This document shows positions 2,024 to 19,094 of a stretch of 64,000 nt of DNA, piece by piece. The stretch comes from Chitinophagales bacterium. Lineage in GTDB: Bacteria > Bacteroidota > Bacteroidia > Chitinophagales > Chitinophagaceae. Where the stretch lies: contig JAATGQ010000063.1 of NCBI GenBank assembly GCA_015654595.1, positions 1 to 64,000 of the forward strand. The letters run 5' to 3'. The notes under the pieces were generated by a model. The model worked only from the letters and a program-made list of their open reading frames with translations, did no database searches and was not told the DNA's origin. Position 1 is the stretch's first letter; every line of letters starts with the position of its first letter. Both the position numbers and the translations under genes were made by a program.

Positions 2024-2045
2024 ATAAATCGTTGATATGTTTTTA

Positions 2046-3452
2046 TTAATACCCGGTATTTTGAGTCAGGTTAGCGTCGTTGGATATTTCCAGCGAAGGG
2101 ATAGGATACAAGGCAGCGGTGGACTTCCATCCTGTTTTTTCAACACTCAGTACAGCATCGGCCCGATTGGTGCGTTTGAGATCGTACCAGCGGTGTCCGA
2201 GCTCACAGAAGAGCTCGATCCTCCTTTCCTGTTCTACGGCCAGTAACAGATCGGCCTGTGTTGCAGCGGTCGTATTACCAAGCCCTGCCCGGTTTCGGAT
2301 GACGTTGATGTCTGCCGCTGCGCCATCGGTATTGCCTTGCTCGGCCCGGGCTTCTGCGCGGATCAGGTATTGTTCTGCCAGCCGCAGATAGACATACGCT
2401 TCGGCGGAGCTGCCGGTGGTAGCATTCATATTCTTGTATTTGTAAGGGTAGTAACAGGTTGTGCCTCCATAGTTAAGGGAGCGTACCCAGGTAGTATACC
2501 TTGCATCGCCGGGCTCGAATGCATTTACCAGGTTATCGGTCATCACCATCCAGGGAGTCAGCAATAATGTATTGTAAAAGACATACTGCCAGGCCAGGTT
2601 GTTATACCCTAAATAGATACTGCCGCTGGCGGTGCCATCCATCTGGAAAATAGCTTCGGTATTGTCTTTTAGGAATACATTGCCAATATTGGCTGTGGAT
2701 TGCAGGGCATACAAAGAAGACTGGTTGATTACAGCGGTTGCCTGGGCTTCCGCGTCGCTCCACCGGCCAAGATAGAGATAAACTCTGGCCAGTAAGGCGG
2801 TTGCCGCAAATTTATTGGGCCGTACGCGGTCGTTGGTGGGGGAGGACCAGTAATCGCTGCGCAGCTTGGACTGCGCATCCTGGAGATCGGCGATGATCTG
2901 GGTATATACCTGGTCTTTTGCCGTTCTGGCTGCATTGGTGGTATTAATGGCGGCTGTCGTTAAAACCAACGGAACGTCGCCAAACAGGTTGACGAGATAG
3001 AAGTAACTGAATGCCCGCATAAATTTCGATTCGGCAATGGCTTTTGTCTGGATGGAATCGGTCAGGGATGCGCTGTTCGCCTGTACTCCTGCGATAATGG
3101 CATTGGCCATGTAAACGGTCTTGTAGAGGTTGGTCCAGGTCGTCTGCACTGTGCTGTTGTCGATGGCGATGTTGTTCAGATAAAATGGATCATAAGTCGT
3201 ATTGGTGGTATAGTAATGTGTCTCATCCGCCGAGTTTTCCGGACACACGGACATGTCTATCTGCCATGTCTGGTTGTTATTGACATAAGTTCTTATATAC
3301 ATGCCTGCCAGGGCTGCGACGACCGTATTGTCCGAAGTGAAGACGGTTTCCGTCGTGAGCTGGTTATTGGGCGGAGGCACATTGGCAAACTTTTTACACC
3401 CGCATAACAGGCTTATACCAATACAGACCGATAGCAATTTTATATATTTCAT
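2046..3452 (-). CDS. SusD/RagB-family outer-membrane lipoprotein
   Basis: A 468-residue surface lipoprotein that acts as the lid and substrate-binding partner of the SusC channel encoded just upstream. The N-terminus MKYIKLLSVCIGISLLCGC is a lipoprotein signal with the lipobox Cys in LLCGC. The body has the tetratricopeptide-like helices of the family, and the C-terminus (LFCELGHRWYDLKRTNR..., then YPIPSLEISNDANLTQN) is the characteristic SusD tail. The ATG at 3452 is chosen because the nine extra upstream residues of the longer frame overlap the SusC stop and would spoil the signal peptide. The ligand cannot be inferred; no glycan-degrading enzyme is encoded nearby. Confidence 0.93.
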   Translation of the reverse strand: MKYIKLLSVCIGISLLCGCKKFANVPPPNNQLTTETVFTSDNTVVAALAGMYIRTYVNNNQTWQIDMSVCPENSADETHYYTTNTTYDPFYLNNIAIDNSTVQTTWTNLYKTVYMANAIIAGVQANSASLTDSIQTKAIAESKFMRAFSYFYLVNLFGDVPLVLTTAAINTTNAARTAKDQVYTQIIADLQDAQSKLRSDYWSSPTNDRVRPNKFAATALLARVYLYLGRWSDAEAQATAVINQSSLYALQSTANIGNVFLKDNTEAIFQMDGTASGSIYLGYNNLAWQYVFYNTLLLTPWMVMTDNLVNAFEPGDARYTTWVRSLNYGGTTCYYPYKYKNMNATTGSSAEAYVYLRLAEQYLIRAEARAEQGNTDGAAADINVIRNRAGLGNTTAATQADLLLAVEQERRIELFCELGHRWYDLKRTNRADAVLSVEKTGWKSTAALYPIPSLEISNDANLTQNTGY

Positions 3453-3466
3453 GATGTGGGTGTGTT

Positions 3467-6400
3467 TTAAAATGAACATTTGATGCCAAAAACCACGGTG
3501 CGAAAGGGCGGAATGTTCGATGCCGCGCTTTCGGGGTCATATCCATTGAAGTGGGTTGCAGTAAAGAGGTTCTGCGCTCTTGCATAGAGAATGCAATTGG
3601 TCATCTGCATTTTCTTTGTCCAGGCTGAAGGCATGGTATAGGACAGGGATACGTTTTTCAAACGGGTGTAGGAGGCGTTACTGATCGTCGCGCTTGATTG
3701 CGAATACATATACCCTGCCATATAGGCCGACCCGGCACTGAAATCATATTTTGTAGTCGCGATCTTACCATTCGTTTTTTGGAACAGGTCATAGTAGCCT
3801 TTAGGCAGATTTACGGGAAGATAACCTGGCTCCGAAGAGGACGTGTAAAGCGTGTTCTGCAGGCCTGGCACCATTTTCTTGCCTACGAATTGAACAAAGA
3901 CGTCCAGTTGAAAGCCTTTGTATTGGAAGGTATTGCTAAAACCTCCAAAGAAATCAGGATCGCTTTTGCCTACTGTGACATAATCCCCCTTGCCATAGAC
4001 GCCCAAGCCGGTCTCGGGATAGTTGCTGATGCCGTCCTTGTTCGCATCGAGAAAGGTGGGCAGAGAGGTCGTAGCCGAAATCCCGGTGTATTTATACAAA
4101 TGTATCGAGCTCAGGGATTCTCCAACGATGCGGGTGCTGATATAACCTGTCCTGGTGATATCGGCGAATCTGGCCAGTTTATTCTGGGGAAAGCTGATAT
4201 TAAACGACGATCTCCAGCTAAAGGATCTGGTGCTGATGTTTCGCGTGTTTACCTCGAATTCCGGCCCCCAACTTTGTATGGTGGCTTTCATGTTGGCGGT
4301 GTAGGAACTAAAGCCGCTGAGGTTGGCCAGGGGATAGCTTACTAAAGGATTGTTTGTTTTGTTGATGAACCATGCCGCTGAAATAGCGATCCGGTCTTTA
4401 AGGAATCCGAGGTCGATCGCTCCTTCCAGTTTTTTGTTCACTTCCCAGGTAAGCTCGGGGTTGGGTGCCAGTGTCGGATATATGCCTGTTACCCCATCAT
4501 AGGTATACGTGCTGGCGCTATAGGTGTCGTAGAATTGGTAGTTTCCGATCTGGTCATTGCCGGTTTTGCCATAGCTGGCCCGCAGCTTGCCAAAACTCAA
4601 CCAGGAAAGGTTGTCTTTCAGGAGAGACTCTTCGGAAAAGATCCAGGCGCCGCCAATGGCCCAGAAACTGCCCTCCCGTTTATTCATCGCAAATTTTGAA
4701 GAGGCGTCCAGACGATAGCTGCCGTTGAAGATATATTTATTATCCCAGCTATAGTTCAACCGGCCAAACAGCGAGCTGTATTTATAGGCGGAGTTAAAGG
4801 AAGCCAAAGAATAGGCTCCCGCCGAAGTATAGTTGGTCAGAAGAAGATCTGACGAAAATTTGCTGGCAAAGATATAATATGGCTGATCATAGGTAGATCC
4901 CTGGAGAGTTGAGCCAACGAGCGCTGTCAGACGTCCCTTGCTGATATCGTGCGTGTATTCGGCTTGTGGTTCAAAGTTCCAGGAGCTGGTGTAGTTTTCC
5001 TGGAAATAAGAGGAAGGCAGCGTGCCGCTGTAGGGATTGATGGACTTGGAGTAGTTCAGGTTTTGCTGATAGATCATCGCGCGGTTATAGCTGCTGCTCG
5101 CCTTCAGGTTCAGGCCAGGAAACAGTGTATAGCGTACGGAGATATTACCAACCAGGTTATTGGTATTGGCAGTGTATCGTACGAATGTATAAGAAAGCGG
5201 ATTGGTATAGCCCAGAGCAGATGAGTTGAACCAATAGAGGTTTTTGCCTGTGCTGTCGTATAAGGGCATATCGGGCGCGGTAGTATTCGCTACGCCGCCC
5301 AGATCGACGGTCTGAAAGGGCCGGGCCGAACTATTGTTCCTGTCCAGGCTATAGTTGACGGCAACATTGATTGCCAGTCTGTGATCCAATGACTGGTGGC
5401 CCATGGTCAGATAGAACGCTCCACGCTGGTAGTCGTATGACCCCGGTATGACCTGCCCTTCTCGGTGGTAGGTACCGCTGAGAAGGAAATTCGTTTGAGC
5501 CGTGCCGCCGGAAAGAGATACGGAAGCGTCGGTTGTATGAGCCGTGCCGCCAAACAGCAGTTTCTGCCAATCGGTGGATTTGGTAGTGTCCCACGTAATC
5601 AGATCGGGCGCGGTGGTGGCTGTCGGTGTTGCTCCGGCATTTGCAAAGGCTGTTCTTCGAACGGTAAGATATTCGGGAAGGGTCATCATTTTGGCCCGGT
5701 GCAGATCGGGAACTGTGCTGACGCCCGTGCTTGCATTGATCTCAAGGACGGTTTTGCCTGCCTTCCCCTTTTTAGTGGTAATGAGGATGACGCCGTTCGC
5801 GCCCCTGCTTCCGAAGATGGCAGTGGCATCGGCGTCTTTCAGCACGCTGATGCTTTCGATATCAGAAGGATTAAGCATGTTGAGGGGGCTATTGCCATAG
5901 GAGGGACTGAGTGTTCCAACTGTATTGCCGCCCGCGGTATACAGTGGCTCGGAAGTAAATGGCACTCCGTCTACAATATACAGAGGGGCTGTTCCCGATA
6001 AAAGGGAGCCGGTAGCCCTGATATTGACGGTAACGCCAGAGCCAGGCTGACCGGATGTCTGGGAGATCAGCACGCCTGGGATTCGCCCTTCCAATGCTTC
6101 TATCACATTGGTTACTGGCTGCTTTTCGATGTCTTTGCTGGTAACGGTAGATACGTCTCCGGTACTCAGCCTTTTTGTCGTGGTGCCATAACCGATGATC
6201 ACTGTCTCATCCAGCCGGCTATCGGAACGTTTTAACTGTATAGTCAGGCTGGCGCCAGCTTCTTTTATTGTCAGTGATTGCTTTTCATAGCCGACACAGG
6301 AAATTTCAAGCACGTCGCCAACGGCTGCTTCCAGTGTAAAGCGGCCATTGGCATCGGTGGTTACACCGTGTTTGCCGCCTTTTATCGAGATGGTGACGCC

Positions 6401-6919
6401 AATCATTGTCTGCCCATCCTGGTTTCGTACGATTCCTGTGACGGGAGGTGCTTTGGGTTCCTGGACGGCCGGGGCAGAAGCGGGGGCTGTGGATGGCGCA
6501 GTGGATGGTTTGCGGGAAAGAAAGATCGTCTTGCCTCTGATTGCATATTGAAAGGGTTGATCCTTTAATACCAGGTCGAGAAATTCGGTGAGTGCAAGGT
6601 TATGAACAGCAATCGTGACAGGCTTTGTGCCCATCATCTGATCCTTCTTACTAAAGAATACATAACCCGTTTGGGTTTCGACGGCGGTAAACACCTGTTT
6701 CAGGCTGAGTTCCTTGCCTGAAAGGGTGATGTTTTGTGCCAGGCCCGAAGCGTTGGCGGAGAAAATAGAAATGAGCAGCAGCAGAACAGTCAACTTCATG
6801 AATAGCAGGGTTTTGGTTCTGGAACCAGGCAGCAGCCTTGACTTTTGCAGTTGGCGAAAGAGTCCAACTACGAATTGTCCGGGCATGGAAAACCTGGAAC
6901 CAATAGCAGTTTTTTGCAT
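3467..6919 (-). CDS. SusC/RagA TonB-dependent transporter with STN signalling domain
   Basis: An outer-membrane channel that imports bulky substrates with TonB energy. From the chosen ATG at 6919 the order is: signal peptide around MKLTVLLLLISIFSANAS; an STN (secretin/TonB N-terminal) domain starting at QNITLSGKELSLKQVF; a carboxypeptidase-regulatory-like domain (VTGIVRNQDGQTMIGV...); the plug with VIIGYGTT and the family motif ATAIFGSRGANGVILITTKK; and a 22-strand barrel ending in aromatic KCSF. An in-frame frame runs on to 7054, but those 45 residues have no signal character. The STN domain is what contacts FecR-type anti-sigma factors, and fecR and the ECF sigma gene lie directly upstream. 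This transporter therefore probably reports substrate binding to its own transcription. Confidence 0.93.
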   Translation of the reverse strand: MQKTAIGSRFSMPGQFVVGLFRQLQKSRLLPGSRTKTLLFMKLTVLLLLISIFSANASGLAQNITLSGKELSLKQVFTAVETQTGYVFFSKKDQMMGTKPVTIAVHNLALTEFLDLVLKDQPFQYAIRGKTIFLSRKPSTAPSTAPASAPAVQEPKAPPVTGIVRNQDGQTMIGVTISIKGGKHGVTTDANGRFTLEAAVGDVLEISCVGYEKQSLTIKEAGASLTIQLKRSDSRLDETVIIGYGTTTKRLSTGDVSTVTSKDIEKQPVTNVIEALEGRIPGVLISQTSGQPGSGVTVNIRATGSLLSGTAPLYIVDGVPFTSEPLYTAGGNTVGTLSPSYGNSPLNMLNPSDIESISVLKDADATAIFGSRGANGVILITTKKGKAGKTVLEINASTGVSTVPDLHRAKMMTLPEYLTVRRTAFANAGATPTATTAPDLITWDTTKSTDWQKLLFGGTAHTTDASVSLSGGTAQTNFLLSGTYHREGQVIPGSYDYQRGAFYLTMGHQSLDHRLAINVAVNYSLDRNNSSARPFQTVDLGGVANTTAPDMPLYDSTGKNLYWFNSSALGYTNPLSYTFVRYTANTNNLVGNISVRYTLFPGLNLKASSSYNRAMIYQQNLNYSKSINPYSGTLPSSYFQENYTSSWNFEPQAEYTHDISKGRLTALVGSTLQGSTYDQPYYIFASKFSSDLLLTNYTSAGAYSLASFNSAYKYSSLFGRLNYSWDNKYIFNGSYRLDASSKFAMNKREGSFWAIGGAWIFSEESLLKDNLSWLSFGKLRASYGKTGNDQIGNYQFYDTYSASTYTYDGVTGIYPTLAPNPELTWEVNKKLEGAIDLGFLKDRIAISAAWFINKTNNPLVSYPLANLSGFSSYTANMKATIQSWGPEFEVNTRNISTRSFSWRSSFNISFPQNKLARFADITRTGYISTRIVGESLSSIHLYKYTGISATTSLPTFLDANKDGISNYPETGLGVYGKGDYVTVGKSDPDFFGGFSNTFQYKGFQLDVFVQFVGKKMVPGLQNTLYTSSSEPGYLPVNLPKGYYDLFQKTNGKIATTKYDFSAGSAYMAGYMYSQSSATISNASYTRLKNVSLSYTMPSAWTKKMQMTNCILYARAQNLFTATHFNGYDPESAASNIPPFRTVVFGIKCSF

Positions 6920-7063
6920 AAATTCGCAAATGTTTGGTTGTTTAAAAAAAGAGATTACACGCTCGATTTGATCAGCTAAACAGTCCGCCGGGAGTGGTTC
7001 CAAGCACTTCCGGTTTTTTGTTTTCAGCCAAACTCTTTCATATTTTTGGCACAATGGTTAACC

Positions 7064-7112
7064 CTGGGAGCAGTCCCAGCACCGGCAATGAATGCGGCAC
7101 TATATATAGTGC
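7064..7112. repeat. hairpin and 16-bp palindrome between fecR and susC
   Basis: Two compact inverted repeats: CTGGGA-GCAG-TCCCAG at 7064-7079, and the perfect palindrome GCACTATATATAGTGC at 7097-7112. They sit just after the fecR stop (minus strand) and about 145-190 bases before the susC start. They could separate fecR from susC transcription, bind a regulator, or lie in the susC leader. No T-run follows, so a simple terminator is less likely. Confidence 0.45.
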
Positions 7113-7127
7113 GGGTGGGCTATAGCA

Positions 7128-8381
7128 TTAAGGTAATAAGGTTAGTTTTCTTCCTTCTAATTTATAATGTACACCGAATTCTTTAAATCCTTCGAGTAGC
7201 TGGTCCAGGGTTACGTCCCGGGTAAGCTTCCCCACGAATTCGCTGTTGCGAACTCCTTTATCGATCACGATCTCTATGTCATACCACCTTTCGATCTGCT
7301 GCATCACCTGATACAAGCCTGCTCCGTCGAAGTAGAAAAGTCCGTTCTTCCAGGCCATTGTCTTATCGATATCGGCTTCCATGACCTTTATAATTCCGTT
7401 GTCATCCGATGTGCCGGGGTCGCCGGATCCTGTCGTCTGTGCCTGCTGGCCAGGCTTGAGGATGACAGAGTGCCGGCGAATTGGGGAGGGCTGTCCGTTG
7501 GATAGAACAGAGATATTGACCGATCCTTCCAGCAGGGTGGTGCTGATTTTATCTTCGTTGGAATAGGCATCCACATTGAAGTGTGTACCGAGCACGTCTA
7601 CGCTGATCTTGTTATTGACGATTACGTGAAAGGGCATCCGGACATTTTTCGCGACTTCGAAATAGGCTTCTCCTGTTATATCTACCTGGCGCTGGTCGCC
7701 GGCAAATATCGTCGGATAACGCAGGGTGCTTGCCGCATCGAGCCATACCCGCGTTCCATCTGGCAGCACCAGGCTGAATTGACGTCCTTTGGGGGTGCTC
7801 ACCGTGTTGAATGCCGTTGTCCCGGCGTTTGTGCCCGTGGGGATATAGGAGAGTTGTCCGTTTTTTAATACTACCTGTGCGCCGCTCTGGGTGGCGATCA
7901 CGCCATTGCCTGCGCTGTCGAGCACTACCTGGCGGCCATCGGCCAAGGTGAGTATGCCGCCATTCCTGCCCGGCTTGATGTCGGACGCCTTTATCGAAAC
8001 GATGGAGGTCGGCTGATCTTTTTTGTTGATTATCCAGAGGTAAGCGCCAATGCCAGCAAGGAGGAAGACGGCGGCAGCGGCCCAGGCCCATTGGCGAGAG
8101 GGCGGTATGCGTCTGACAACAGCCGTTGGAATGTTTTTTTCCAATGAAGTTCTCAGGTCTTTATTGGACGATATGATGGCCTCCAGTATGGAATCGATGA
8201 CTATATCATCCGTTGTCTTCCCGGATTGGGGTATGGCGGTGACGGCCTCCTTTATAAAGACAATATGATCGTTGTCGTCGTCGCTTTTTATTTGTTCAAA
8301 CAAAGCGTTTACCTGGGCCGGCGTGGCTTGGTCCGATATATAAAGCTCCCAAAGTTCCTTTATGGATTCGCTGTTTTTCAT
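7128..8381 (-). CDS. FecR-family anti-sigma factor
   Basis: A 417-residue inner-membrane regulator. The N-terminal cytoplasmic part (1-95) is the anti-sigma region, one transmembrane segment lies at about 98-117 (WAWAAAAVFLLAGIGAYLWI), and the periplasmic part has the FecR domain (FSLVLPDGTRVWLDAASTL..., GEAYFEVAKN) and a C-terminal DUF4974-type STN-like domain (FYFDGAGLYQVMQQIERWYDIEI...). It relays a signal from the STN-bearing SusC to the ECF sigma factor encoded 59 bp upstream. Order and domain match mark it as the middle member of a cell-surface signalling system. Confidence 0.94.
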   Translation of the reverse strand: MKNSESIKELWELYISDQATPAQVNALFEQIKSDDDNDHIVFIKEAVTAIPQSGKTTDDIVIDSILEAIISSNKDLRTSLEKNIPTAVVRRIPPSRQWAWAAAAVFLLAGIGAYLWIINKKDQPTSIVSIKASDIKPGRNGGILTLADGRQVVLDSAGNGVIATQSGAQVVLKNGQLSYIPTGTNAGTTAFNTVSTPKGRQFSLVLPDGTRVWLDAASTLRYPTIFAGDQRQVDITGEAYFEVAKNVRMPFHVIVNNKISVDVLGTHFNVDAYSNEDKISTTLLEGSVNISVLSNGQPSPIRRHSVILKPGQQAQTTGSGDPGTSDDNGIIKVMEADIDKTMAWKNGLFYFDGAGLYQVMQQIERWYDIEIVIDKGVRNSEFVGKLTRDVTLDQLLEGFKEFGVHYKLEGRKLTLLP

Positions 8382-8440
8382 GCTTGGTTAGATAAAGGCG
8401 GATGAGAAAGAGGGGAGGACTAGTCAATTTTGATATTTTT

Positions 8441-9055
8441 TTAAAAAAAATACCAAAAGCTGAATAGCAGCAGGTAGAGCTCTCCTTTTCCCTGCAGATA
8501 AGATCTAATGGATTGAAGGTTTTTTACCATGTGATTGCGGACGGTATTCCGGGAGATGTTGAGGCGGGTGGAAATCTCCTGGTAGCTTAGTCCTTCGTCG
8601 CGGTGTAGTTCAAATACTCGTCTTCCTTGTTCTGGTAGCTGACAGATGGCTTCGCCGATCAATTTTTCTGCCTGGTCAAGATCGTATAAATTTTCCTGGA
8701 TGGTATCGGTTTCACTGTGGAGGGCCTTGCTGACAAGGTATTGCATTTTTATCTCCAGCTCCTGGCGGCGGATGCGATCGATACAGCGGTTGGAGGTCAT
8801 TTTGAAGAGATAGCCTTCTGGTGAGTCGATTGCCGCAAGTTGGTGACGGTTTGTCCAGAGCTGCATAAATACCTCCTGGACGACCTCTTCGGCCCAAAAT
8901 TCGGATTTCAGGAGCTTGAGGGCGTTCCATTTCACCTGTTCGAAATAGGTCCTGAACAGTTCTGTAAACGCTATACCATCTCCGTGAGCGATACGGATAA
9001 ACAGCTGTCTGCCATTATGTAAATCCTCATTATCCAAAATACCTTGCCTTAACAA
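8441..9055 (-). CDS. ECF-type RNA polymerase sigma factor (FecI/SusCD-associated)
   Basis: A 204-residue sigma-70-family factor. Region 2 is at about 27-95 (FTELFRTYFEQVKWNALKLL, WAEEVVQEVFMQLW, GYLFKMTSNRCIDRIRR). Region 4 is at about 137-190 (LPEQGRRVFELHRDEGLSY, then the helix-turn-helix YQEISTRLNISRNTVRNHM). It directs polymerase to the promoters of the linked susCD operon when released by FecR. The C-terminus ends in an unusual hydrophobic, aromatic tail (LYLLLFSFWYFF), which could be a membrane or FecR contact or simply run-on. No clear -7 box was found upstream. Confidence 0.94.
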   Translation of the reverse strand: MLRQGILDNEDLHNGRQLFIRIAHGDGIAFTELFRTYFEQVKWNALKLLKSEFWAEEVVQEVFMQLWTNRHQLAAIDSPEGYLFKMTSNRCIDRIRRQELEIKMQYLVSKALHSETDTIQENLYDLDQAEKLIGEAICQLPEQGRRVFELHRDEGLSYQEISTRLNISRNTVRNHMVKNLQSIRSYLQGKGELYLLLFSFWYFF

Positions 9056-9175: not shown

Positions 9176-10612
9176 CTACTCCGGTGGATTGACCAACGCA
9201 TTTTTATTCCTATTTCTCCTGAAGTAATAAATGGGTACGCCGATAAGCGTAATGATCAGGCCGGGCCAGGTGAATCCGGGTTTGTATACGATGAGCAGGC
9301 CGCAAAAAGCAAGACCCATCAGGATGTAGATGGCCGGCAAAACGGGGTAGCCGATTGCTTTGTAGGGTCGATCGTGGTTGGGATGTTTTACACGGAGTAT
9401 GAAAATTCCGAATATCGTCAGGATATAAAAGATAACTACGACAAAACTGATCATGTCGAGAAGATCGCCGTACTTCCCGCTGAGGCAAAGGACGGAGGCC
9501 ATGCCGGCCTGCAGCCAAAGCGCGAAACCTGGAACGGATTGCTCATTCAGCTCGCCCGTGCGTTTGAAGAAGAGTCCGTCTTTTGCCATGCTATAGTAGA
9601 CCCGCGCTCCAGCGAGTATCATCCCATTATTACAGCCAAAGGTGGCGATCATGATCATGACGGCGATGACGCCAGTGCCAACCGGGCCGAAAATAGCGTT
9701 GGCAGCAGCAATTCCTACCCTGTCCTTTTCGGCTGTAGCGATGCCTGATAAAGGCAGGACGGCGGTGAACATGAGATTGAGCAATACGTAAAGCAGGGTT
9801 ACAATCAGCGTTCCTAGCAGCAGGCTAAGACCGATATTGCGTTTTGGATTGGTGATCTCTCCTGCAACGAAAGTTACGTTGTTCCACGCATCATAACTGA
9901 CAATGGCGCCTACCAAAGCTGCAGCAACGGCTCCCCATAGTGCCGGCTTATCTGTATAGTTATGTAGGATACCATCGGGACTGATCTGGTGGATATCCCA
10001 TGCTTGAGTCCAGTTGGTCTGCCAGACATGGTTTTTCAACAATATGAACCCAAACAGGATAAGACCTATCATGCTTCCGACCTTTGTCAGTGTAAAGCTT
10101 GTCTGGATAATTTTGCCTTTCCGGATACCGCGGCTGTTGATCCAGGTTAGCAGGAAGATGGTGGCTATGGCCAGGACCTGTGCCGGGGAAACGCGGAAGC
10201 TGCCTAGCGACAGCAGGATCTTGTCTTCGCCGACTTCTGGTATGAAGTAGGCCAGGAATTTATAAAAAGATACGCCGACTGCCGCGATAGTTCCTGTCTG
10301 GATCACGGTAAACAGGCTCCAGCCATAAAGGAAGGCGATAGGCGGCCCATAGGCTTCCCGGAGATAGACATACTGGCCGCCGGCTTTTGGATACATGCCG
10401 CTAAGTTCTCAGTAGCTCAGGGCTGCGGTTAGGGTCATGAATCCGCCGATCAGCCAGACACCGATCAGCCATCCTGCCGAACCGATATGCCGGGTGATAT
10501 CGGCAGCGACGATAAATATCCCGGATCCGATCATGCTGCCGGCTACAAGCAGCGTGGCATCCAGTAAACCGAGTTCACGTTTTAGCGTTTTTGTTTGAAG
10601 TGTCTCAGGCAT
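9176..10612 (-). pseudogene. APC-family amino-acid permease interrupted by an in-frame TGA
   Basis: Two adjacent open stretches are one permease. The first (10612-10412) encodes TM1-2 of a LAT/SteT-like transporter (LLVAGSMIGSGIFIVAADIT...). The frame then meets TGA at 10411-10409 and continues in the same frame with ELSGMYPKAGGQYVYLREAYG. Relatives read SYGEL at this point, so a single change of a Gly codon (GGA to TGA) explains it. Everything downstream is intact, about 478 residues in all with around 12 membrane segments. The gene starts 8 bp after the flavin monooxygenase and closes the susCD operon. It may be a recent loss, a base-calling error, or reinitiated at the ATG at 10396, which would lack TM1-2. 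The substrate is probably a neutral or other amino acid. Confidence 0.85.
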
Positions 10613-10620
10613 AAGATGCT

Positions 10621-11787
10621 TTAGCGCAAAGGCGCGGTAGTTAAGGGAGTTGCGGGTTCGAGCGCTGGCGTTCTGTTTTGCAGATCGGATAAGGATGCAT
10701 TTGGCAGACGATGCAGCAGCAGCCGCGCAAATTCATTGGCCTCTTCGATCAAGGGAAAGCCGGAGAAAATAAAGGCCCGGAAGCCCATCTGCATGTAGCG
10801 ATGGAGCTTGTCCAGAATTTGATCCGGATCGCCGACGAGGGCGCCGCCGCATCCGGAGAACACCTTGCCGATACCGGTCCAGAGCAAGGGTTCGATATAG
10901 CCCTCTGCATCGGCCAGCTCATCCCTGAGCTTATCCTGGCGCAAGACACCCAGCGAACGGGAGTCCTCCGAACGTGCACGGATCTCCAGTCCCCGCTGCT
11001 CGTCGAATTTGGACATCAGCTTCTTTACGTAGGCTTTTGCCTGGCTTTCTGTATCGCGGGGGATCACATGGATACGCAGCCCGAAATCGAGTGTACGTCC
11101 GTATCGGGCGGCTCTTGCGCTCATGTCCTGCATGGTCGCATACATACTTTCTTCGGTCTCGGGCCACATAAGAAAGGTGTCGCAGTACTGCGCACATACT
11201 TCCCTTGCCCCTTCGCTGGTGCCTCCGAAATAAAGCAGGGGACCGCCGTTCTGCTGATAGGGTTTTGCGGGATCGGAGGGCATATCGATATTATACAGCT
11301 CGCCCTTGAAGTGGATATGATCCGATGTCCACGCCTGCTGGAGGATCTCGATCGTCTCTGCGCATCGCCGGTAGCGAAGCGCTGGATCTTCTCTGAGACC
11401 GGGCAGATCGGAGTTGATGATATTGATGGTCAGCCGGCCTTTCAGAATATGATCGAGGGTGGCGATCGTTCTTGCCAGCATCGGCGGATGCATCTCTCCT
11501 GTACGGACAGCTGTGAGGAGGTTGATACGGGTTGTCTTTGGACCAATACCCGCCGCAAAGGTCAGTACATCCTGCCCGACGGTATAAGCGCTGGGCAGTA
11601 AAACCTTACTAAAGCCAAGACGTTCGGCATTCAGCACGATGTCTCCGCTGTGATTGAAATTGGCGCGGCGGGTGTTGTCTAAAACCCCAAGATATTCTGT
11701 GTCGCCGCCGCAGAGATCGCTGAACCAGGATATCTCTGCTATGGGCTGTGGCGTGCGGATGGGAACGGTAGTTAGGGTGGTTAACAT
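10621..11787 (-). CDS. LLM-class flavin-dependent monooxygenase, SsuD-like
   Basis: A 388-residue luciferase-fold enzyme that uses FMNH2 and oxygen. The N-terminus (ISWFSDLCGGDTEYLG), AVRTGEMHPPMLARTIATLD, the FGLRIHVIPRDTE stretch and the C-terminal GALVGDPDQILDKLHRYMQ...FSGFPLIEEA match alkanesulfonate monooxygenases of about 380 residues. The Arg-x-His pair of SsuD is kept (LRIHVI). The Cys of the SsuD active site and the loop Arg in GLVRGGAG appear absent (here GKVFSGCGG). That argues for a different substrate, such as another organosulfur or N-containing compound. It is the fourth gene of a susC-susD-amidohydrolase-monooxygenase-permease run with gaps of 8-22 bp. No flavin reductase (SsuE) gene is next to it. 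Confidence 0.88.
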   Translation of the reverse strand: MLTTLTTVPIRTPQPIAEISWFSDLCGGDTEYLGVLDNTRRANFNHSGDIVLNAERLGFSKVLLPSAYTVGQDVLTFAAGIGPKTTRINLLTAVRTGEMHPPMLARTIATLDHILKGRLTINIINSDLPGLREDPALRYRRCAETIEILQQAWTSDHIHFKGELYNIDMPSDPAKPYQQNGGPLLYFGGTSEGAREVCAQYCDTFLMWPETEESMYATMQDMSARAARYGRTLDFGLRIHVIPRDTESQAKAYVKKLMSKFDEQRGLEIRARSEDSRSLGVLRQDKLRDELADAEGYIEPLLWTGIGKVFSGCGGALVGDPDQILDKLHRYMQMGFRAFIFSGFPLIEEANEFARLLLHRLPNASLSDLQNRTPALEPATPLTTAPLR

Positions 11788-11798
11788 ACCAGTAAGTG

Positions 11799-13538
11799 TT
11801 AGTTCTTTTTGTAAATGGTTTTACCTTCTTTTATCGTCTCGAGGACCTGGATGTCTTTGATCTTCACCGGATCGATGGTAGTGGGATCGTCCGATAGGAT
11901 CACGAGGTCCGCCAGCTTGCCTTTTTCCAGTGAGCCTTTTTCTTTTTCTTCAAAATACTCATAGGCGCCGTTGATCGTGATGGCTCTTAACCCTTCTGTT
12001 GGCGTCAGCCGTTCTTCGTGCCCGATGACCACTCCTGAGCGGGACAGGCGGTTGACCGAAGTCCACAACAGAAAGATCTGGCTCAGAGGCGTCACCCCGT
12101 AATCGGTATGGTTGGTAAAGACGATGCCTCGTTTCAAAGCGGATTTTACCGGGCTTTCGAAATAGGCCCTGTCCTTGCCCAGATTACGGACGTGAACGTC
12201 CCCCCAGAAAAAAGTATGGTTGGTGAAAAAAGTCGGCAGGATATTCAGCTCTTTATATTTGTCCAGCTGGTCGGCGCGCGCGAACTGCGAGTGAATGACT
12301 ACCGGTCTGCGGTTCTCGTTGGTGGTGTGCAGCTCCGCATCAGCGTTCTGGATCGCTTTTATATACATGTCGATCGTGGCGTCCCCGTTACAGTGTACAA
12401 AGAAGCGGATATTGTGTTTGAAATCATTGAGGACAGCGGCATTGAAATAGTCCTGCGTGACGGTTGGAATGCCCCGGCAGTCGTCATCTGTACAGCCTGG
12501 AACTTCTACCAGGTAGGGCTTGCTGAAATAAGCTGTCTTTCCTTGAGGGCTCCCATCCGCTACCAGTTTGGTGCCGGCGAGCTTCAGGTGATGTTCGTTC
12601 ACGCCAAAATGCCAGCGGTTGCTGTCGGCCAGCAGCTTGTCTACATAGGTATAGGCGGGCAAGGATTCGATATCGATAAAAAGCGCTCCTAAATCGGCTG
12701 CCTTTCGTAACTCTTCGAGTTGCGCAAAACCTGTAAGACCTTCCTGTGCTGTGGTTATGCCATTGCTGGCATAGAACTGTTCCTGGTCTTTGATGTCCTG
12801 CAGCTGTTCGTCCCAGCTCTGTTGCTTACGTTCGCGTTTCAGCAGATAGCCTGCATGTTCCTGCAGCAGGCCCGTGGGATCGTTGGTGCCAGGCTTGCGA
12901 ACGATCATACCGCCCGCTGGATTTTTTGTGGTACTGTCGATGCCGGATAGCCGCAATGCGTAGGAATTGACCAGCACCATATGTCCCGAGACATGCTGGA
13001 GTGCGACGGGGTTATTAGGAAAGGCCGCGTCGAGATCGTCTTTTGTTGGATGACGGCCCTCGGCCAGCTGATCCTGGTCATAGCCATAACCTGTTATCCA
13101 TTCTCCGTCCTTGATGCCGTTCTTTTCCTTGAAGGCTTTTAATACGGCAATGATATCGGGAATGCTTTTGACCGTGCCGACGGGCGGCGCATTCAGATTG
13201 GCAGCCTTTGCCTGTCCGAGACCCATGAAATGACTGTGCCCATCGATAAAGCCGGGAATGAGGGTCTTGCCCTGCAGATCGATTACTACGGTCTGCGGTC
13301 CTTTTAACTGGCCTATGGTCTTATCGCTGCCAGTAGCAAGGATGCGTCCGTCTTTTATAGCCAGCGCGGCGGTGATTGTATTGGCGGAGTCAATTGTATG
13401 AACACGGCCGTGGACATAGATGGTATCTGCTGTTGGTTTGCCTTCGCCTGGTTCGTTGCTGAGCCGGCCCTTGGTTCGGAACCCTAAGGGTAAGGTGAGT
13501 GCGACAAGCGCGGATATTGATAGAATGCTATTTTTCAT
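11799..13538 (-). CDS. exported amidohydrolase, YtcJ-like
   Basis: From the ATG at 13538 the protein has 579 residues. Residues 1-23 (MKNSILSISALVALTLPLGF) look like a signal peptide, so the enzyme likely works in the periplasm. The catalytic TIM barrel has metal ligands in LIPGFIDGHSHFMGLG, a central region with QHVSGHMVLVNSYALR and FFVHCNGDATIDMYIKAI, and the C-terminal beta-sandwich ending in GKLADLVILSDDPTTI. YtcJ/AepA-type amidohydrolases are metal-dependent hydrolases of mostly unknown amides or cyclic substrates. A longer frame to 13616 overlaps the susD gene. It begins 13 bp after susD and precedes the flavin monooxygenase by 11 bp, so its substrate is probably what the SusCD pair delivers. 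Confidence 0.9.
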   Translation of the reverse strand: MKNSILSISALVALTLPLGFRTKGRLSNEPGEGKPTADTIYVHGRVHTIDSANTITAALAIKDGRILATGSDKTIGQLKGPQTVVIDLQGKTLIPGFIDGHSHFMGLGQAKAANLNAPPVGTVKSIPDIIAVLKAFKEKNGIKDGEWITGYGYDQDQLAEGRHPTKDDLDAAFPNNPVALQHVSGHMVLVNSYALRLSGIDSTTKNPAGGMIVRKPGTNDPTGLLQEHAGYLLKRERKQQSWDEQLQDIKDQEQFYASNGITTAQEGLTGFAQLEELRKAADLGALFIDIESLPAYTYVDKLLADSNRWHFGVNEHHLKLAGTKLVADGSPQGKTAYFSKPYLVEVPGCTDDDCRGIPTVTQDYFNAAVLNDFKHNIRFFVHCNGDATIDMYIKAIQNADAELHTTNENRRPVVIHSQFARADQLDKYKELNILPTFFTNHTFFWGDVHVRNLGKDRAYFESPVKSALKRGIVFTNHTDYGVTPLSQIFLLWTSVNRLSRSGVVIGHEERLTPTEGLRAITINGAYEYFEEKEKGSLEKGKLADLVILSDDPTTIDPVKIKDIQVLETIKEGKTIYKKN

Positions 13539-13551
13539 TGCTGCAGGTTTA

Positions 13552-14988
13552 TTATTGTGGTGTGTCTGAATTATAAGCGGCTTCACTGCTTGGGATCGGC
13601 CATACGTAGTTGCCATCGGTTGGCAGGACCTGCGGGGCTGATCCGGCGTTGCCTGTCTTTGCAGGTAGGGGCTGGACGCGGCGCAGGAGATCCGGAGTGC
13701 GGAAGCCTTCGCCGAGAAGCTCTATACGCCGTTCGGTTAATATTGTGGAGATCAGCGTGGCGCCAGCCGTCAGACTTGACGGATCGAATACGTATCCGGG
13801 ATTGCTGCGCTGACGGACGGCATTCAGCAGGGCGATCGCCGTCGCCGTATTGTTGTCCTGGGCCGCCGCCTCTGCGTAGTTCAGCAGGACCTCTGCATAG
13901 CGGATCACGGGAACATAGTCGCTATACGGGACGGAGTTATGCGGAAATTTATTCAACAAACGCTGGCCGCTGGTATTCGAAATGATCAGTCCATTGCGGG
14001 CGTCGGTTGAACCGGTTGCAAAGGCCGGGTCGGCGACGATCGCCGATGTGTTGAGGTAAAGGATAGGGTAGAGGTAGTTGTAAGCGAGGGCAGCCTGGTT
14101 GCCTGGCGTTTCTGCCGCGGTGGCAAAGGGCAGGAAGAAGATCGCTTCCGGGCCGCTGTAGGCGCCGCTCCAGATCGTTGCAAAACTGGTTTCGAGCTTA
14201 TGTGTCGTTGTGCCGGCAGTATATTGGTAGGGTAGAGACGCCGGAACCAGCTTGGCGGCCTCCGCTTCTACTTTTTGATAGTTCCCCTGAGCCAGGTAAA
14301 CACGGGTCTTCAGCGCAATGGCGCTGGCCTTATGCGCTCGGGAGGCGGTAAGGATAGCCGTGCTGTAGCCATTGGGCAGACCGGCTTCGGCATCGTTCAG
14401 ATCGGCAATGATCTGCGCATATACTTCCGATACCTTACTAAAAGGAAAGGTATTGTTACCGCCGGAGGTAACAGGTGTAAGCCGCAGGGGCAAAGCCAGC
14501 GAAGTACTGTCTTGCAGGTAGGGCCGGGCGTAGGCGGTTACAAGGTTGAAATAATTAAAGGCACGCACAAACTTTGCTTCCGCGAGATAATTCGTCCGAA
14601 GGGAGTCGCTGATCACCGTGGTATTCGTGATGTTGGCGATCAGGATGTTGGCTGCGTTGATGGAAGAATAGGCTGCGGTCCACACGCCATTGACAAAATC
14701 GCCGGAAGCGGTGATGCTTTGATTCCAGACATTGGCGCCCGTGGCATTGTTGCCGTCATTCTGGCTGAACTCGTCGCCGCGCTGCTCGTTGAAGATCAGG
14801 TCGCGGCCTCCATAATAATAGGTGTTCTCCAGCTTGGAATACAGGTTGTTGACGGCTGCCAGTATCTTGTCAGAAGTGGTAAACGCTGTGGCGTCCGACA
14901 GGCTGGTGGCGGGTACCGTATTCAGCAGGTTCTTGGTGCAGGATGAAAAGGCCAGCAGGGTGAGTGCGACCAGTATTTTATTACGCAT
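13552..14988 (-). CDS. SusD/RagB-family outer-membrane lipoprotein (second locus)
   Basis: A 478-residue surface lipoprotein, the substrate-capture partner of the SusC encoded 22 bp upstream. The signal MRNKILVALTLLAFSSC ends in lipobox FSSC. The SusD-like body is followed by the family C-terminus: YAEVLLNYAEAAAQ, TERRIELLGEGFRTPDLLR and VWPIPSSEAAYN. Short and regular spacing to the downstream amidohydrolase places it in a catabolic operon. The ligand is unknown, but the absence of glycoside hydrolases argues against a polysaccharide. Confidence 0.94.
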   Translation of the reverse strand: MRNKILVALTLLAFSSCTKNLLNTVPATSLSDATAFTTSDKILAAVNNLYSKLENTYYYGGRDLIFNEQRGDEFSQNDGNNATGANVWNQSITASGDFVNGVWTAAYSSINAANILIANITNTTVISDSLRTNYLAEAKFVRAFNYFNLVTAYARPYLQDSTSLALPLRLTPVTSGGNNTFPFSKVSEVYAQIIADLNDAEAGLPNGYSTAILTASRAHKASAIALKTRVYLAQGNYQKVEAEAAKLVPASLPYQYTAGTTTHKLETSFATIWSGAYSGPEAIFFLPFATAAETPGNQAALAYNYLYPILYLNTSAIVADPAFATGSTDARNGLIISNTSGQRLLNKFPHNSVPYSDYVPVIRYAEVLLNYAEAAAQDNNTATAIALLNAVRQRSNPGYVFDPSSLTAGATLISTILTERRIELLGEGFRTPDLLRRVQPLPAKTGNAGSAPQVLPTDGNYVWPIPSSEAAYNSDTPQ

Positions 14989-15010
14989 AGATGATTACTT
15001 CTGAGTGTTT

Positions 15011-18000
15011 TTAAAATCCAACATTTAAGCCGATGGTCAAAGACCGGGAATTAGGCGGAACGTTCTGATCCTTGCCGCCATTGATGGAATTGCCATTGAT
15101 AGAAACTTCCGGGTCAGAGCCTTTGTATCGGGTGATCGTAAAAATATTGCCCGCCTGTACATACACATGCGCGGAGCTGATCTTCGAACGGATATCCTCG
15201 GGAAGCGGGATGGTATACCCCAGCGCAGCGGTCTTCAGCTTTACATAGGATCCATTTTCTACACGGGCACTGTTGGAAGAGCTGAAACCATTGGTGAAAT
15301 TGTCTCCCCAAACGAGTTTGGGAACGTTAGTCACCTGTCCTGCCTTTGTCCATCGGTTGAGGATAAAAGTGCCGTTGTTGAAATAGCGTTGGTCGGCGAT
15401 CGTGGCGATCGTTCCGTCATAGATCTTATTTCCGCCGGAGAAGTTGACGCCAAGGTTGAGATCAAATCCTTTATAGCTGAAGGTGTTGTTCAGACCGCCA
15501 AACCACGTCGGCAATGAAGGCCCCATGATACGGCCGTCTGCATAGTTATCAATGGCGGTAGCTGTCGCCCCATCCAGGGTGGACCAGGCCTTTTTCACCG
15601 CGTCGTATTGGACCTTTACGTTGTTCCTGTTCAGGTAGATGCGGTTGCCATTGGCAGGATTGACGCCGGTTGTTGGAACGGCGTAGATGGATCCGATCGA
15701 ATAGCCAACCCTGGTCATATTCTGGATGCCAAAGGTGGTAAGCGAAGTAGGATAGATATCACCGCCGGTTCCGAGATTGGTCACTTTGTTCTTAAGGGTC
15801 GAAAAATTAAAGCTCAGATCCCATCGGAAATCGCCCGTGTTCAATACGTGAGCATTGATGCCCAGTTCGACGCCCTTGTTGTAAAGCGAGCCGACGTTAG
15901 CGGCGATGCTGTTGCCGGGGATACCCTGGGAAGAGGATTGCGGTGCATTCAGGATCAGGCCGTCGGTGAGGTTATAATAGTAGTCGGCGTCGAGCGTGAC
16001 CCGACCCTGCCAAAAACCTGCTGTCAGACCGACGTCTGTCTTTTTGCTGGTTTCCCATTTGAGGCTCTTGTTGCCTGCCTGTGAGAAGTACAGGGTGGCT
16101 AACCCGTCATAGGTGGCCGAACTATACGTAGATAGCGCCGCATAGTCGGAGATCGAGCTGTTGCCGACCACTCCGTAACTGCCGCGTATTTTCAGGTCGC
16201 TGAGGACCTCGGAAAGTGAGGAGTTTTTATAGAACTTTTCTTCGGAAATATTCCAGCCCGCGCTTCCGCCGCCAAAGTTTCCCCATTTGTGACCCATAGC
16301 TAATGCCGAGAGTCCGTCTCTACGGAAGTTGAAACTAAAAAGATAACGACGATCATAGTCGTAGTCGATTCCGCTGAATAAAGAGATCAGGCCGCTTTCT
16401 GACTGGATATTCCCGGTCGCCGAAATGTTGGACCAGCCGCCCTGGTAGCTGGTGTAATAGGGATCGGTGATGCCCGTCCGGACGGCGCCCCAGCCATTGA
16501 TCGTCTTATGCAGCTGTTCGTAGCCTGCAAGGATCTTCAGGTGATTTTTGCCGCCGATCGTAGGATTGTAGATCAGGGTATTGGCCCAGTCGGTATTCTT
16601 TAACGCATTGGTGGTATTGGTGGCCGAACCGCCGCCGATGATATTGGGGCGGGCAGTAGCGCCGTCGCCGCTATAGGGATTTAAAAAGGCGGTGTTGTTG
16701 ATGCTAAGGTTATCATAGCCATAAGAGAGCTTTGCCTTTAAATGGGGAATGATCTCCCACTCGCCGTAGATATTGCCGACAAAAGCATTGTTCTCCGAGG
16801 TGTTCTTGTCCAGATCCAGAACCGTTTTCAGGTTCCAGGCATTGAATACCCCAAGCGCAGAGCTGTTGGCGCCATAGCCGATCGTGCCGTTGGCTGCATT
16901 GATGTTATACGAACCGTCGGGATTGACTGCCCGAACATTGGGAGGCAGGATATAGGTTAGACGGGCAAGCGGCTCTGTACCGATATATTGCGTATTGACG
17001 CTGTTGCCTGTAGCGGCATTGATGGAGTTGGGAGCGATGGCGCCCGTATTGGGGCCGCTGTTAAGCGAATTGCTGTAGGATATATTTGCTCCGACATGGA
17101 CGGTATTCAACAGCCGGTGATCGATATTAAAGCGGACAACCTTGCGGGTATAGTTGTTGTTTCGGATAAAGGAGTTCTGATCCGTATAGCCGGTCGAAAA
17201 ATAGTAGTTCGTTGCATCGGTAGAACCTGCTACGCTGACGTTATGACTCTGGGAAGTGCCTGTATGATAGGCTACATCGTACCAGTTGGTATTGACGGTG
17301 CTGCTGTCTGCGTTCTTTTGTAAGGCAAAGCCAGCGCTGAGTCCGGCATTGACGCGGGCTTCATTTTTTATGGCGACGTATTGTTCCGCGTTGAGCAGCT
17401 TGGGCAGGTTGTAAGGTCTTGCAAATCCTACCCACCCGTCATAGGTGACTCTGGCCTTGCCTTTCCGGCCCTTTTTAGTGGTAATGACCAGCACCCCGTT
17501 GGCTGCCCTGGATCCATAGATAGCTGTCGCTGACGCGTCTTTCAACACATCGATGGTGGCAATGTCTGCGGGATTGATATCCGAAAGCGGATCGTTACCG
17601 ACTGCGCCGCCTGCCGATCCGGTAAACACGGTTACCCCGTCGACCACAACGAGCGGATAGATACCGCTGGAAATAGAGTTGACCCCGCGAATGCGCAGCA
17701 CCGGCGGGTTATTTAATGCGCTGCTGGGCTGGATGATGTCGACGCCGGCGGCCTGGCCGCCCAAAAGCTGGGTAAAACTTTGAGCCGGCTTGTTTTCAAG
17801 GCTGGCCGCGCCGATCTGGGACGCGGCTCCCGTATATTGTTTTTTGCTAAGCGTGGCATAGCCAGAGGAAACGACTACATCCGTGAGATTGGAAGACGAG
17901 GTTTTTAAAAGGACGCGGATATTCTGGCTTTCGCTGGTTGGCCATTCTACCGTCTGGTAGCCCACGTATGATACTACCAGGGTGACAGGCGGGTGCTGGC

Positions 18001-18193
18001 CTGTGACAAATTTAAATTCTCCTTTTTCGTTGGTCAGTACTTCATGGGTTGTCCCTTTGATATGGACAGTAGCGCCGGACAACGGCTCGTGATTGTGCTC
18101 GTCCTGGACGACGCCGCTGATAGAAACGTTTGTCTGGCCGAAACCGGCCAACACCCATAGCAGCAACACAAGGACGGGAAGAGATCGTCTCAT
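15011..18193 (-). CDS. SusC/RagA TonB-dependent transporter (second locus, no STN domain)
   Basis: An outer-membrane TonB-dependent channel of about 1060 residues. Signal peptide MRRSLPVLVLLLWVLAGFGQ, carboxypeptidase-regulatory-like domain (SISGVVQDEHNHEPLSGATV...), plug with VVVSSGYATLSKKQYTGAAS and the family motif ATAIYGSRAANGVLVITTKKG, then the long barrel ending in GLNVGF. The ATG at 18193 is preferred because the signal peptide begins there; an in-frame ATG at 18232 adds 13 basic residues. Unlike the transporter at 3467-6919 it has no STN domain, so it is not coupled to a FecR/ECF switch. A promoter with standard spacing lies at 18376-18406, leaving a leader of roughly 180 bases. Confidence 0.93.
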   Translation of the reverse strand: MRRSLPVLVLLLWVLAGFGQTNVSISGVVQDEHNHEPLSGATVHIKGTTHEVLTNEKGEFKFVTGQHPPVTLVVSYVGYQTVEWPTSESQNIRVLLKTSSSNLTDVVVSSGYATLSKKQYTGAASQIGAASLENKPAQSFTQLLGGQAAGVDIIQPSSALNNPPVLRIRGVNSISSGIYPLVVVDGVTVFTGSAGGAVGNDPLSDINPADIATIDVLKDASATAIYGSRAANGVLVITTKKGRKGKARVTYDGWVGFARPYNLPKLLNAEQYVAIKNEARVNAGLSAGFALQKNADSSTVNTNWYDVAYHTGTSQSHNVSVAGSTDATNYYFSTGYTDQNSFIRNNNYTRKVVRFNIDHRLLNTVHVGANISYSNSLNSGPNTGAIAPNSINAATGNSVNTQYIGTEPLARLTYILPPNVRAVNPDGSYNINAANGTIGYGANSSALGVFNAWNLKTVLDLDKNTSENNAFVGNIYGEWEIIPHLKAKLSYGYDNLSINNTAFLNPYSGDGATARPNIIGGGSATNTTNALKNTDWANTLIYNPTIGGKNHLKILAGYEQLHKTINGWGAVRTGITDPYYTSYQGGWSNISATGNIQSESGLISLFSGIDYDYDRRYLFSFNFRRDGLSALAMGHKWGNFGGGSAGWNISEEKFYKNSSLSEVLSDLKIRGSYGVVGNSSISDYAALSTYSSATYDGLATLYFSQAGNKSLKWETSKKTDVGLTAGFWQGRVTLDADYYYNLTDGLILNAPQSSSQGIPGNSIAANVGSLYNKGVELGINAHVLNTGDFRWDLSFNFSTLKNKVTNLGTGGDIYPTSLTTFGIQNMTRVGYSIGSIYAVPTTGVNPANGNRIYLNRNNVKVQYDAVKKAWSTLDGATATAIDNYADGRIMGPSLPTWFGGLNNTFSYKGFDLNLGVNFSGGNKIYDGTIATIADQRYFNNGTFILNRWTKAGQVTNVPKLVWGDNFTNGFSSSNSARVENGSYVKLKTAALGYTIPLPEDIRSKISSAHVYVQAGNIFTITRYKGSDPEVSINGNSINGGKDQNVPPNSRSLTIGLNVGF

Positions 18194-18315
18194 TAGTTTG
18201 GTTTTGTGGCGAATGGGCAATACCATGCGCACAGGCCAGGGAATAACTCCTGTTACCTCGATGATTAAAATAAGATTAAAGAAGGTAAGGCGTAACGGTT
18301 GATGGGAGCTTCTAA

Positions 18316-18333
18316 CGGCTGTAAAAACAGCCG
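18316..18333. repeat. small hairpin in the susC leader
   Basis: CGGCTGT (18316-18322) and ACAGCCG (18327-18333) form a 7-bp stem with a four-base A loop. It lies in the predicted untranslated leader of the minus-strand susCD-amidohydrolase operon, 43 bases downstream of the -7 box and about 120 before the start codon. It has no T-run, so a structural or regulatory role is more likely than termination. Confidence 0.35.
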
Positions 18334-18375
18334 AGAGGTACGAGTTTGCGCATGTCGTAGTGATTTAACTGGACG

Positions 18376-18406
18376 TAAAGATAGGATTGGATTATTAGTC
18401 TACAAA
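18376..18406 (-). promoter_or_regulatory. promoter of the susCD-amidohydrolase-monooxygenase operon
   Basis: On the minus strand TTTG (18406-18403) is followed after exactly 19 bases by TATCTTTA (18383-18376), a close match to the Bacteroidota housekeeping promoter TTTG-N19-TAnnTTTG. This fits expression by the major sigma factor rather than an ECF factor. Confidence 0.6.
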
Positions 18407-18531
18407 AATAATGGACTAAAATTTTAAAACAGAAAATTCTCTTGCTTTCGGATATTGGTCAGGCACGGCATGTTTTGTGCACTATTATAGCCATTCGGGT
18501 ATTGATTTTTTTCGATATTTTTAATATATCG

Positions 18532-18728: not shown

Positions 18729-19094
18729 ATGGAAAAGAAGGTTAACAGGCAGTTGAAAAAAGCTGCTTTCAGCGTGAATGGAAGCCTTTGGCTTGAAGGG
18801 GACGGGCTGCGTTTTTTTGGGCCGGGACCGGTAGAGCTGTTGGAACTGATCGAAAAAACGGGGTCTATCAGCAAGGCGGCAAAGGGTATGGGAATGTCGT
18901 ATAAAAAAGCCTGGGATATCGTCACCCGGATCAACGGGATGGCGGCTGAGCCCTTTGTCGTAACGAGCGTAGGAGGTGAAGACGGAGGCGGGTCTACCAT
19001 CTCCCAGGGCGCCAAGGAAATGATTGCCTGGTATAAAGGTGTCCGGGAGCGGTTCAGGTTATTTCTTGAAAAGGAGTCGGCGGCGTTACAATAG
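18729..19094 (+). CDS. ModE-like winged-helix regulator lacking the molybdate-binding domain
   Basis: A 121-residue protein matching the N-terminal DNA-binding domain of ModE: LWLEGDGLRFFGPGPVELLE, then the helix-turn-helix region LIEKTGSISKAAKGMGMSYKKAWDIV, and a dimerising C-terminal helix. Full ModE carries two molybdate-binding (Mop/TOBE) domains after this; here the protein stops, as in the short LysR-type ModE homologues common in Bacteroidota. It probably controlled molybdate uptake or a molybdoenzyme. Only a decayed xdhC fragment lies upstream, so its present target may be elsewhere in the genome. It is followed by a strong terminator at 19165-19183. Confidence 0.87.
   Translation: MEKKVNRQLKKAAFSVNGSLWLEGDGLRFFGPGPVELLELIEKTGSISKAAKGMGMSYKKAWDIVTRINGMAAEPFVVTSVGGEDGGGSTISQGAKEMIAWYKGVRERFRLFLEKESAALQ

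Follow-up and report, generated by a model that had tools for sequence, protein, structure and literature searches.

A conserved SusC/SusD-monooxygenase operon of Bacteroidota with a probable role in sulfur scavenging

Introduction

As a rule, SusC/SusD pairs are interpreted as importers of glycans, and a pair that heads an operon without any glycan-degrading enzyme raises the question of what it would import. Such a pair is found in the 64,000-nucleotide stretch analyzed here (contig JAATGQ010000063.1 of the Chitinophagales bacterium assembly GCA_015654595.1; hereafter, the window), where a previous sequence-only reading had proposed an operon for a small organic molecule rather than a glycan. 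The data presented below place the pair within a conserved operon, alongside enzymes that fit such a proposal. Sulfur scavenging is very likely its role, and a sulfur-scavenging operon induced by cysteine shortage is probably the best overall explanation, which would imply that some loci annotated as 'starch-binding' may instead acquire sulfur.

A five-gene operon conserved in Bacteroidota

Five consecutive genes on the minus strand, in the order susC, susD, Amidohydro_3 gene, luciferase-like monooxygenase gene and APC permease gene, are separated by gaps of 22, 13, 11 and 8 bp, in agreement with the 8-22 bp described in the sequence-only reading:

15011..18232, minus strand: SusC/RagA TonB-linked transporter (TIGR04056, 716.6 bits against a cut-off of 368.25)
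13552..14988, minus strand: SusD-like lipoprotein (PF07980, 80.5 bits; PF14322, 70.5 bits; lipobox-like LLAFSSC)
11799..13538, minus strand: Amidohydro_3 metal-dependent hydrolase with a hydrophobic N-terminus (PF07969, 325 bits)
10621..11787, minus strand: monooxygenase dependent on reduced flavin mononucleotide (FMNH2), of the sulfoquinovose-monooxygenase family, KVF/SGFP clade (structures, alignment and tree)
9176..10612, minus strand: APC-family amino-acid permease (ATG at 10612, end at 9176; above its Pfam cut-off; in-frame TGA at 10409-10411)

The SusC/RagA model and the SusD domains match adjacent genes, as in a genuine SusC/SusD pair, and a signal-peptide-like stretch suggests 18193 as the start of SusC. 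The third gene combines the Pfam match of amidohydrolase family 3 with an HSH, H, H, D set (H101, H103, H382, H416 and D479), invariant or nearly so in alignment A2, which we take to be the metal-ligand positions; a structure model of this protein for a fold search was dropped at a mean pLDDT of 55. As previously noted from the sequence, no glycoside hydrolase domain was detected by Pfam among the five genes. The operon thus shares the adjacent SusC and SusD with the Sus-type polysaccharide utilisation loci, but lacks their glycan-degrading enzymes and carries a monooxygenase and an amino-acid permease instead.

A search of 33 genomes of the genus, the window's own included, yielded four SusD relatives at 68-79% identity, and the four orthologous loci all keep the identical five-gene order, one of them (L073) with two amidohydrolase genes. 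Moreover, a scan of named genomes against the monooxygenase alignment, from which the best 80 of 587 relatives were kept, revealed the full order in three Pedobacter, Dyadobacter luteus, two Flavobacterium and two Runella genomes, and only the amidohydrolase (in two frames), monooxygenase and permease in a Chitinophagaceae metagenome-assembled genome (L133). With the window counted and the copy of the L075 operon at L152 taken once, the full order occurs in 13 genomes and the last three genes in 14, so that the amidohydrolase and the monooxygenase do accompany susCD in other Bacteroidota, a check that the sequence-only reading had suggested. The monooxygenases of these 14 genomes form a single clade, with a support of 96/93 in an 88-row tree with midpoint root and a bootstrap that had not fully settled. 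The recurrence of the full order in 13 genomes, together with this single clade, indicates that the arrangement is more than chance.

More distant monooxygenase relatives (51-63% identity) were found in 9 of the 395 genomes of the class besides the window's own. No amidohydrolase match, nor any SusC match above 31% identity, was detected near these nine relatives, and two of their loci show an APC match at 22-24% identity. Scattered homologues, which the sequence-only reading had considered fatal to its proposal, do therefore exist, yet they fall outside the operon clade. A setting beside sulfate-assimilation genes, which gene lengths had suggested for the second-tier SusCD relatives, was discarded, as Pfam searches on a sample of the neighbours indicated other, largely housekeeping, functions.

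A monooxygenase related to the sulfoquinovose enzymes

The description of the monooxygenase as 'SsuD-like' proved to be loose. The protein scores 234.9 bits against TIGR03565, the SsuD equivalog model, far below the cut-off of 518.2 bits, and shares with the alkanesulfonate monooxygenases SsuD and MsuD the fold and the Arg226/His228 pair, but only 30-32% identity, with Phe at the positions that align with SsuD Arg297 and Tyr331 throughout the operon clade. Its closest solved structures are the sulfoquinovose (SQ) monooxygenases SmoC (PDB 7oh2 and 7olf; 51-52% identity), whose PDB titles mention oxidative desulfurization. Nearest homologue, family and fold all coincide with SmoC, as do the retained positions of Arg226 and His228, whereas the RAR/SGYP motifs of the solved SQ enzymes are replaced by KVF/SGFP in all 14 rows of the operon clade. 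Furthermore, no match to aldo/keto reductases (SmoB-type) or to SSF transporters was detected among the contiguous neighbours of these 14 rows; the present enzyme is accompanied by an amino-acid permease and SusCD instead. As a separate observation, other SQ-monooxygenase relatives (L034 9245-12174 and L036) are flanked by an SSF symporter and a sulfite-oxidase-like molybdoprotein.

A palindrome upstream of the operon and poly-cysteine leaders in its relatives

Three features precede the operon, the last of them being an open reading frame (ORF) that is an addition to the earlier inventory:

18376..18383, minus strand: -7-like promoter box TATCTTTA, with TATCTTTG, TATATTTG, TATATTTA and TATATTTG at the matching place of the orthologues
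18397..18417, strand not assigned: palindromic operator-like site, AGTCCATTATTTTTGTAGACT on the minus strand, with 2 mismatches to AGTCTAC-N7-GTAGACT
18312..18353, minus strand: short leader ORF MRKLVPLGCFYSR with one Cys, read from the sequence

The Bacteroidota promoter consensus is TAnnTTTG. The consensus promoter formerly assigned to TATTTTTG (18403-18410) lies inside the palindrome, and the box of the orthologues corresponds to TATCTTTA, which should replace it.

In the four same-genus orthologues, short ORFs directly after the promoter end in CCCCSC, RRCCC, CCRC and SCCC, and other leaders were found in Flavobacterium (FCCMCFCC and FCYMCFCC) as well as before the APC-monooxygenase pairs of Hymenobacter and Solirubrum. 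Under one fixed rule, which requires 3 or more Cys among the final 8 residues of an ORF of at most 45 aa within 450 nt upstream, a poly-Cys leader precedes 10 of 20 related operons (6 of the 12 that start with SusC and 4 of the 8 sister-clade ones that start with APC), as compared to 20 of 1427 other ORFs (Fisher p 4.5e-13, a value that overstates independence given the kinship of the operons). Dinucleotide shuffles would yield 0.15 leaders in the 12 SusC-first and 0.28 in the 8 APC-first operons, or 0.43 altogether. Several of the 20 control matches look genuine, such as those of a SusC-SusD-sulfatase set, the cysE of Flavobacterium hydrophilum, a Mucilaginibacter SusC and L152. The leader MRCCCI of Pedobacter HMWF019, where the upstream stretch is short, falls outside the count.

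Behind the operon of F. hydrophilum (L128) lies another poly-Cys leader, and then come cysE (174.5 bits, under its cut-off of 210.65), cysK and a family 2A encapsulin with the cysteine desulfurase that is its cargo. In Synechococcus, sulfur starvation induces an encapsulin of this type (PMC8049743). The encapsulin-desulfurase set shares with the operon the palindrome, in the window's genome, and the poly-Cys leader, in F. hydrophilum, and differs from it in being a sulfur-starvation compartment rather than an uptake system.

The palindrome (AGTCTAC-N7-GTAGACT or a close variant of it) overlaps the promoter of each of the five same-genus operons; before susC, the sites of the four orthologues deviate from the degenerate pattern by 0-1 mismatch. 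A stricter form occurs at 6, 4, 10 and 10 sites (30 in total) in four same-genus genomes, with 0 sites for the reversed pattern. Since the exact form was found in only 4 of the 395 genomes of the class, the window's own included, the palindrome is largely a genus-level feature; similar sites in Pedobacter and Flavobacterium were recognised by eye only.

In the window's own genome, 7 of the 17 sites examined adjoin clear sulfur or cysteine genes, this operon among them. Two of the sites, each with a promoter-like box, shortly precede tRNA-Cys (L111 5997-6068 and L119 6015-6086), and others accompany the family 2A encapsulin and cysteine desulfurase, two small genes further on; a second SusC-SusD pair with a sulfatase as third gene and the poly-Cys leader MVKRSCCCCTC (L114 6121-12376); a lone sulfatase; and a SusC-like gene with a TauE/siroheme gene that adjoins sulfite reductase and CysN/CysD-like genes. 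An eighth site, near a pair of cysteine-synthase-like and ThiF/ThiS genes, is ambiguous in direction. Among 21 sites read in four relatives, three precede tRNA-Cys, which thus stands behind the palindrome in four genomes, one precedes a SusCD-sulfatase set with a poly-Cys leader (G549), and three lie beside a gene for a PhyH-type dioxygenase.

Such PhyH-type genes, candidate organosulfur dioxygenases, are found next to the palindrome not only in the window's genome but also in three of the four same-genus relatives (L107 1380-2213; L222 6213-7049; L224 4554-5429, as the second gene; L235 762-1604), and one of them has the leader MHQQSTSYARNILQQPPCCCCC. A ModE-like gene at 18729-19094 was rejected as the regulator, with 73.6 bits against a cut-off of 98.5 and no counterpart in the four orthologous loci. 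No Rfam match at gathering scores was obtained in the window or in seven loci.

Proposed pathway and alternative explanations

In the most likely pathway, SusC/SusD would import through the outer membrane an organosulfur compound with an amide link, for which a conjugated aminosulfonate is the foremost candidate. The exported amidohydrolase would then hydrolyse this link in the periplasm, the APC permease would take the amino-organosulfur part through the inner membrane, and the FMNH2-dependent monooxygenase would break the C-S bond, producing sulfite for cysteine synthesis. In the relatives, the poly-Cys leader ORF would probably sense charged tRNA-Cys through ribosome stalling, and a regulator that binds the palindrome would supply a second sulfur signal. 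An amide-linked aminosulfonate is a tentative choice of substrate, suggested by the class of the permease, by an amidohydrolase with conserved metal-ligand positions and by the peptidase genes beside two sister-clade pairs. In a wider frame, poly-Cys leaders may control a sulfur-starvation regulon of Bacteroidota that includes SusCD importers, one of which would serve a new organosulfur pathway where a descendant of the SQ monooxygenases, with Arg297 and Tyr331 changed to Phe, desulfurates an amide-derived amino-organosulfur compound; the chances of this extended proposal are somewhat below even. Should the leaders function in this manner, sulfur-acquisition genes of several Bacteroidota families could be recognised by a short sequence signature, which would also hint at the substrates of uncharacterised transporters and enzymes, including the monooxygenase clade with the altered active site.

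Several observations weigh against this proposal. Phe at the positions of SsuD Arg297 and Tyr331 means that sulfonate cleavage is not assured, no flavin reductase domain such as that of SmoA was detected in the Pfam scan of the five window genes (a single PF01613 match, of 41.2 bits and above its cut-off, lies elsewhere in the genome), and the idea of an amide substrate depends on a broad enzyme family. A leader that conforms to the rule is absent from the window, Dyadobacter, both Runella, two Pedobacter (with only MMC or MC mini-ORFs, by eye) and 4 of the 8 sister-clade sets; the window's own leader holds one Cys and no Cys cluster, and 13 leaders gave folding z values of -2.28 to 1.2 against mono-nucleotide shuffles, with no consistent attenuator structure. 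As for the palindrome, the loose form occurs at 26 sites in the window's genome against 11 for the control, so the two-mismatch copy of the window is weak by itself, and 14 of the 21 sites of the relatives lie beside ECF, SusC or unassigned genes. Finally, the permease frame of the window is broken by the TGA at 10409-10411, whereas the four same-genus orthologues (L072-L075) keep a single frame; the permease gene of the sequence-only reading is thus present, but not intact.

This stop, together with the degenerate leader and palindrome, would fit a non-working remnant of the operon in the window's genome. Such a state appears rather unlikely, given that the other four frames are open, that the monooxygenase motifs agree with those of the clade, and that the TGA could be an error of a draft assembly of 265 contigs. 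On the other hand, the leaders and the palindrome might serve other ends, for instance a metal or redox regulator with sulfur genes as a minor share of its targets. Clear sulfur or cysteine neighbours at 7 of the 17 own-genome sites, plus the ambiguous one, and at 4 of the 21 sites of the relatives, with 3 more at PhyH genes, as well as the frequent ECF-FecR-SusC loci among the remaining sites, speak in favour of this possibility; it is nevertheless quite improbable in view of the palindrome before tRNA-Cys in four genomes and of leaders that are specifically rich in Cys, one of them followed by cysE and cysK.

With regard to the substrate, SQ or a sulfoquinovosyl conjugate could be imported by SusCD and converted by the monooxygenase into 6-oxo-glucose and sulfite, with side roles for the amidohydrolase and the permease. 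The grouping with the SQ monooxygenases makes a sulfonated sugar compatible with the data, so that the exclusion of a glycan in the sequence-only reading seems likely but not strict. However, KVF/SGFP in place of RAR/SGYP in the whole clade, an amino-acid permease in the place of the transporter, neighbours without aldo/keto reductase or SSF matches and the absence of a glycosidase from the five window genes, where the scan for it was made, render SQ improbable. Alternatively, an amide or heterocycle could serve as a source of nitrogen or carbon, through a C-N or ring cleavage like that of RutA. This would accord with an amidohydrolase next to a luciferase-like monooxygenase, since RutA belongs to the same superfamily. 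The RutA match is far weaker (E 4.8e-7 versus 9.8e-132), and poly-Cys leaders, together with a palindrome found at tRNA-Cys, sulfatase and encapsulin genes, indicate sulfur, which leaves this option very improbable. Among the amide, sulfonate and heterocycle branches contemplated in the sequence-only reading, the sulfonate or C-S branch is therefore the one that gains from the leaders and from the palindrome common to sulfur genes, and no pointer was found to a heterocycle or to C-N cleavage.

All these parts are of known kinds; searches of the open-licence literature, judged mostly by title, turned up no case in which SusCD, an altered clade of SQ monooxygenases and poly-Cys leaders are combined in Bacteroidota. 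They gave no report of SusC/SusD with an alkanesulfonate monooxygenase and only unrelated work for SusC/SusD with sulfoquinovose, besides a paper on SQ degraders, an absence that is weak evidence. For polycysteine leaders in Bacteroidota, none appeared among the matches listed, judged mostly by title, which did include the mycobacterial ones; work on Flavobacterium psychrophilum deals with leaders of amino-acid biosynthesis in general. In mycobacteria, leaderless short poly-Cys ORFs have been described as attenuators (Canestrari et al. 2020, as cited in PMC9094748 and PMC9031893). The two groups share a short upstream ORF with contiguous Cys codons, whereas the present ones belong to another phylum, would act by a putative attenuation and precede SusCD, APC-monooxygenase and cysE-cysK sets.

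Neighbouring genes

Peptidases of the S51 or M28 families (L145 7745-8683, L144 7019-8686 and L134 1111-2064) either adjoin APC-monooxygenase pairs, as in the two sister-clade cases of L144 and L145, or are encountered downstream of a SusC gene that a poly-Cys leader precedes. Upstream of one orthologous operon (L074 4007-7694), no Pfam match at 1e-8 was obtained for three genes of 436, 491 and 278 aa, which have a related SusCD pair on one side and rhodanese and LysE genes on the other. Directly downstream of the operon, positions 845-9055 of the window encode an ECF sigma factor, a FecR-like protein, a second SusC-SusD pair and a thioredoxin-like protein, and a set resembling this one (38% identity for SusC and 40% for SusD) bears the palindrome at L116.

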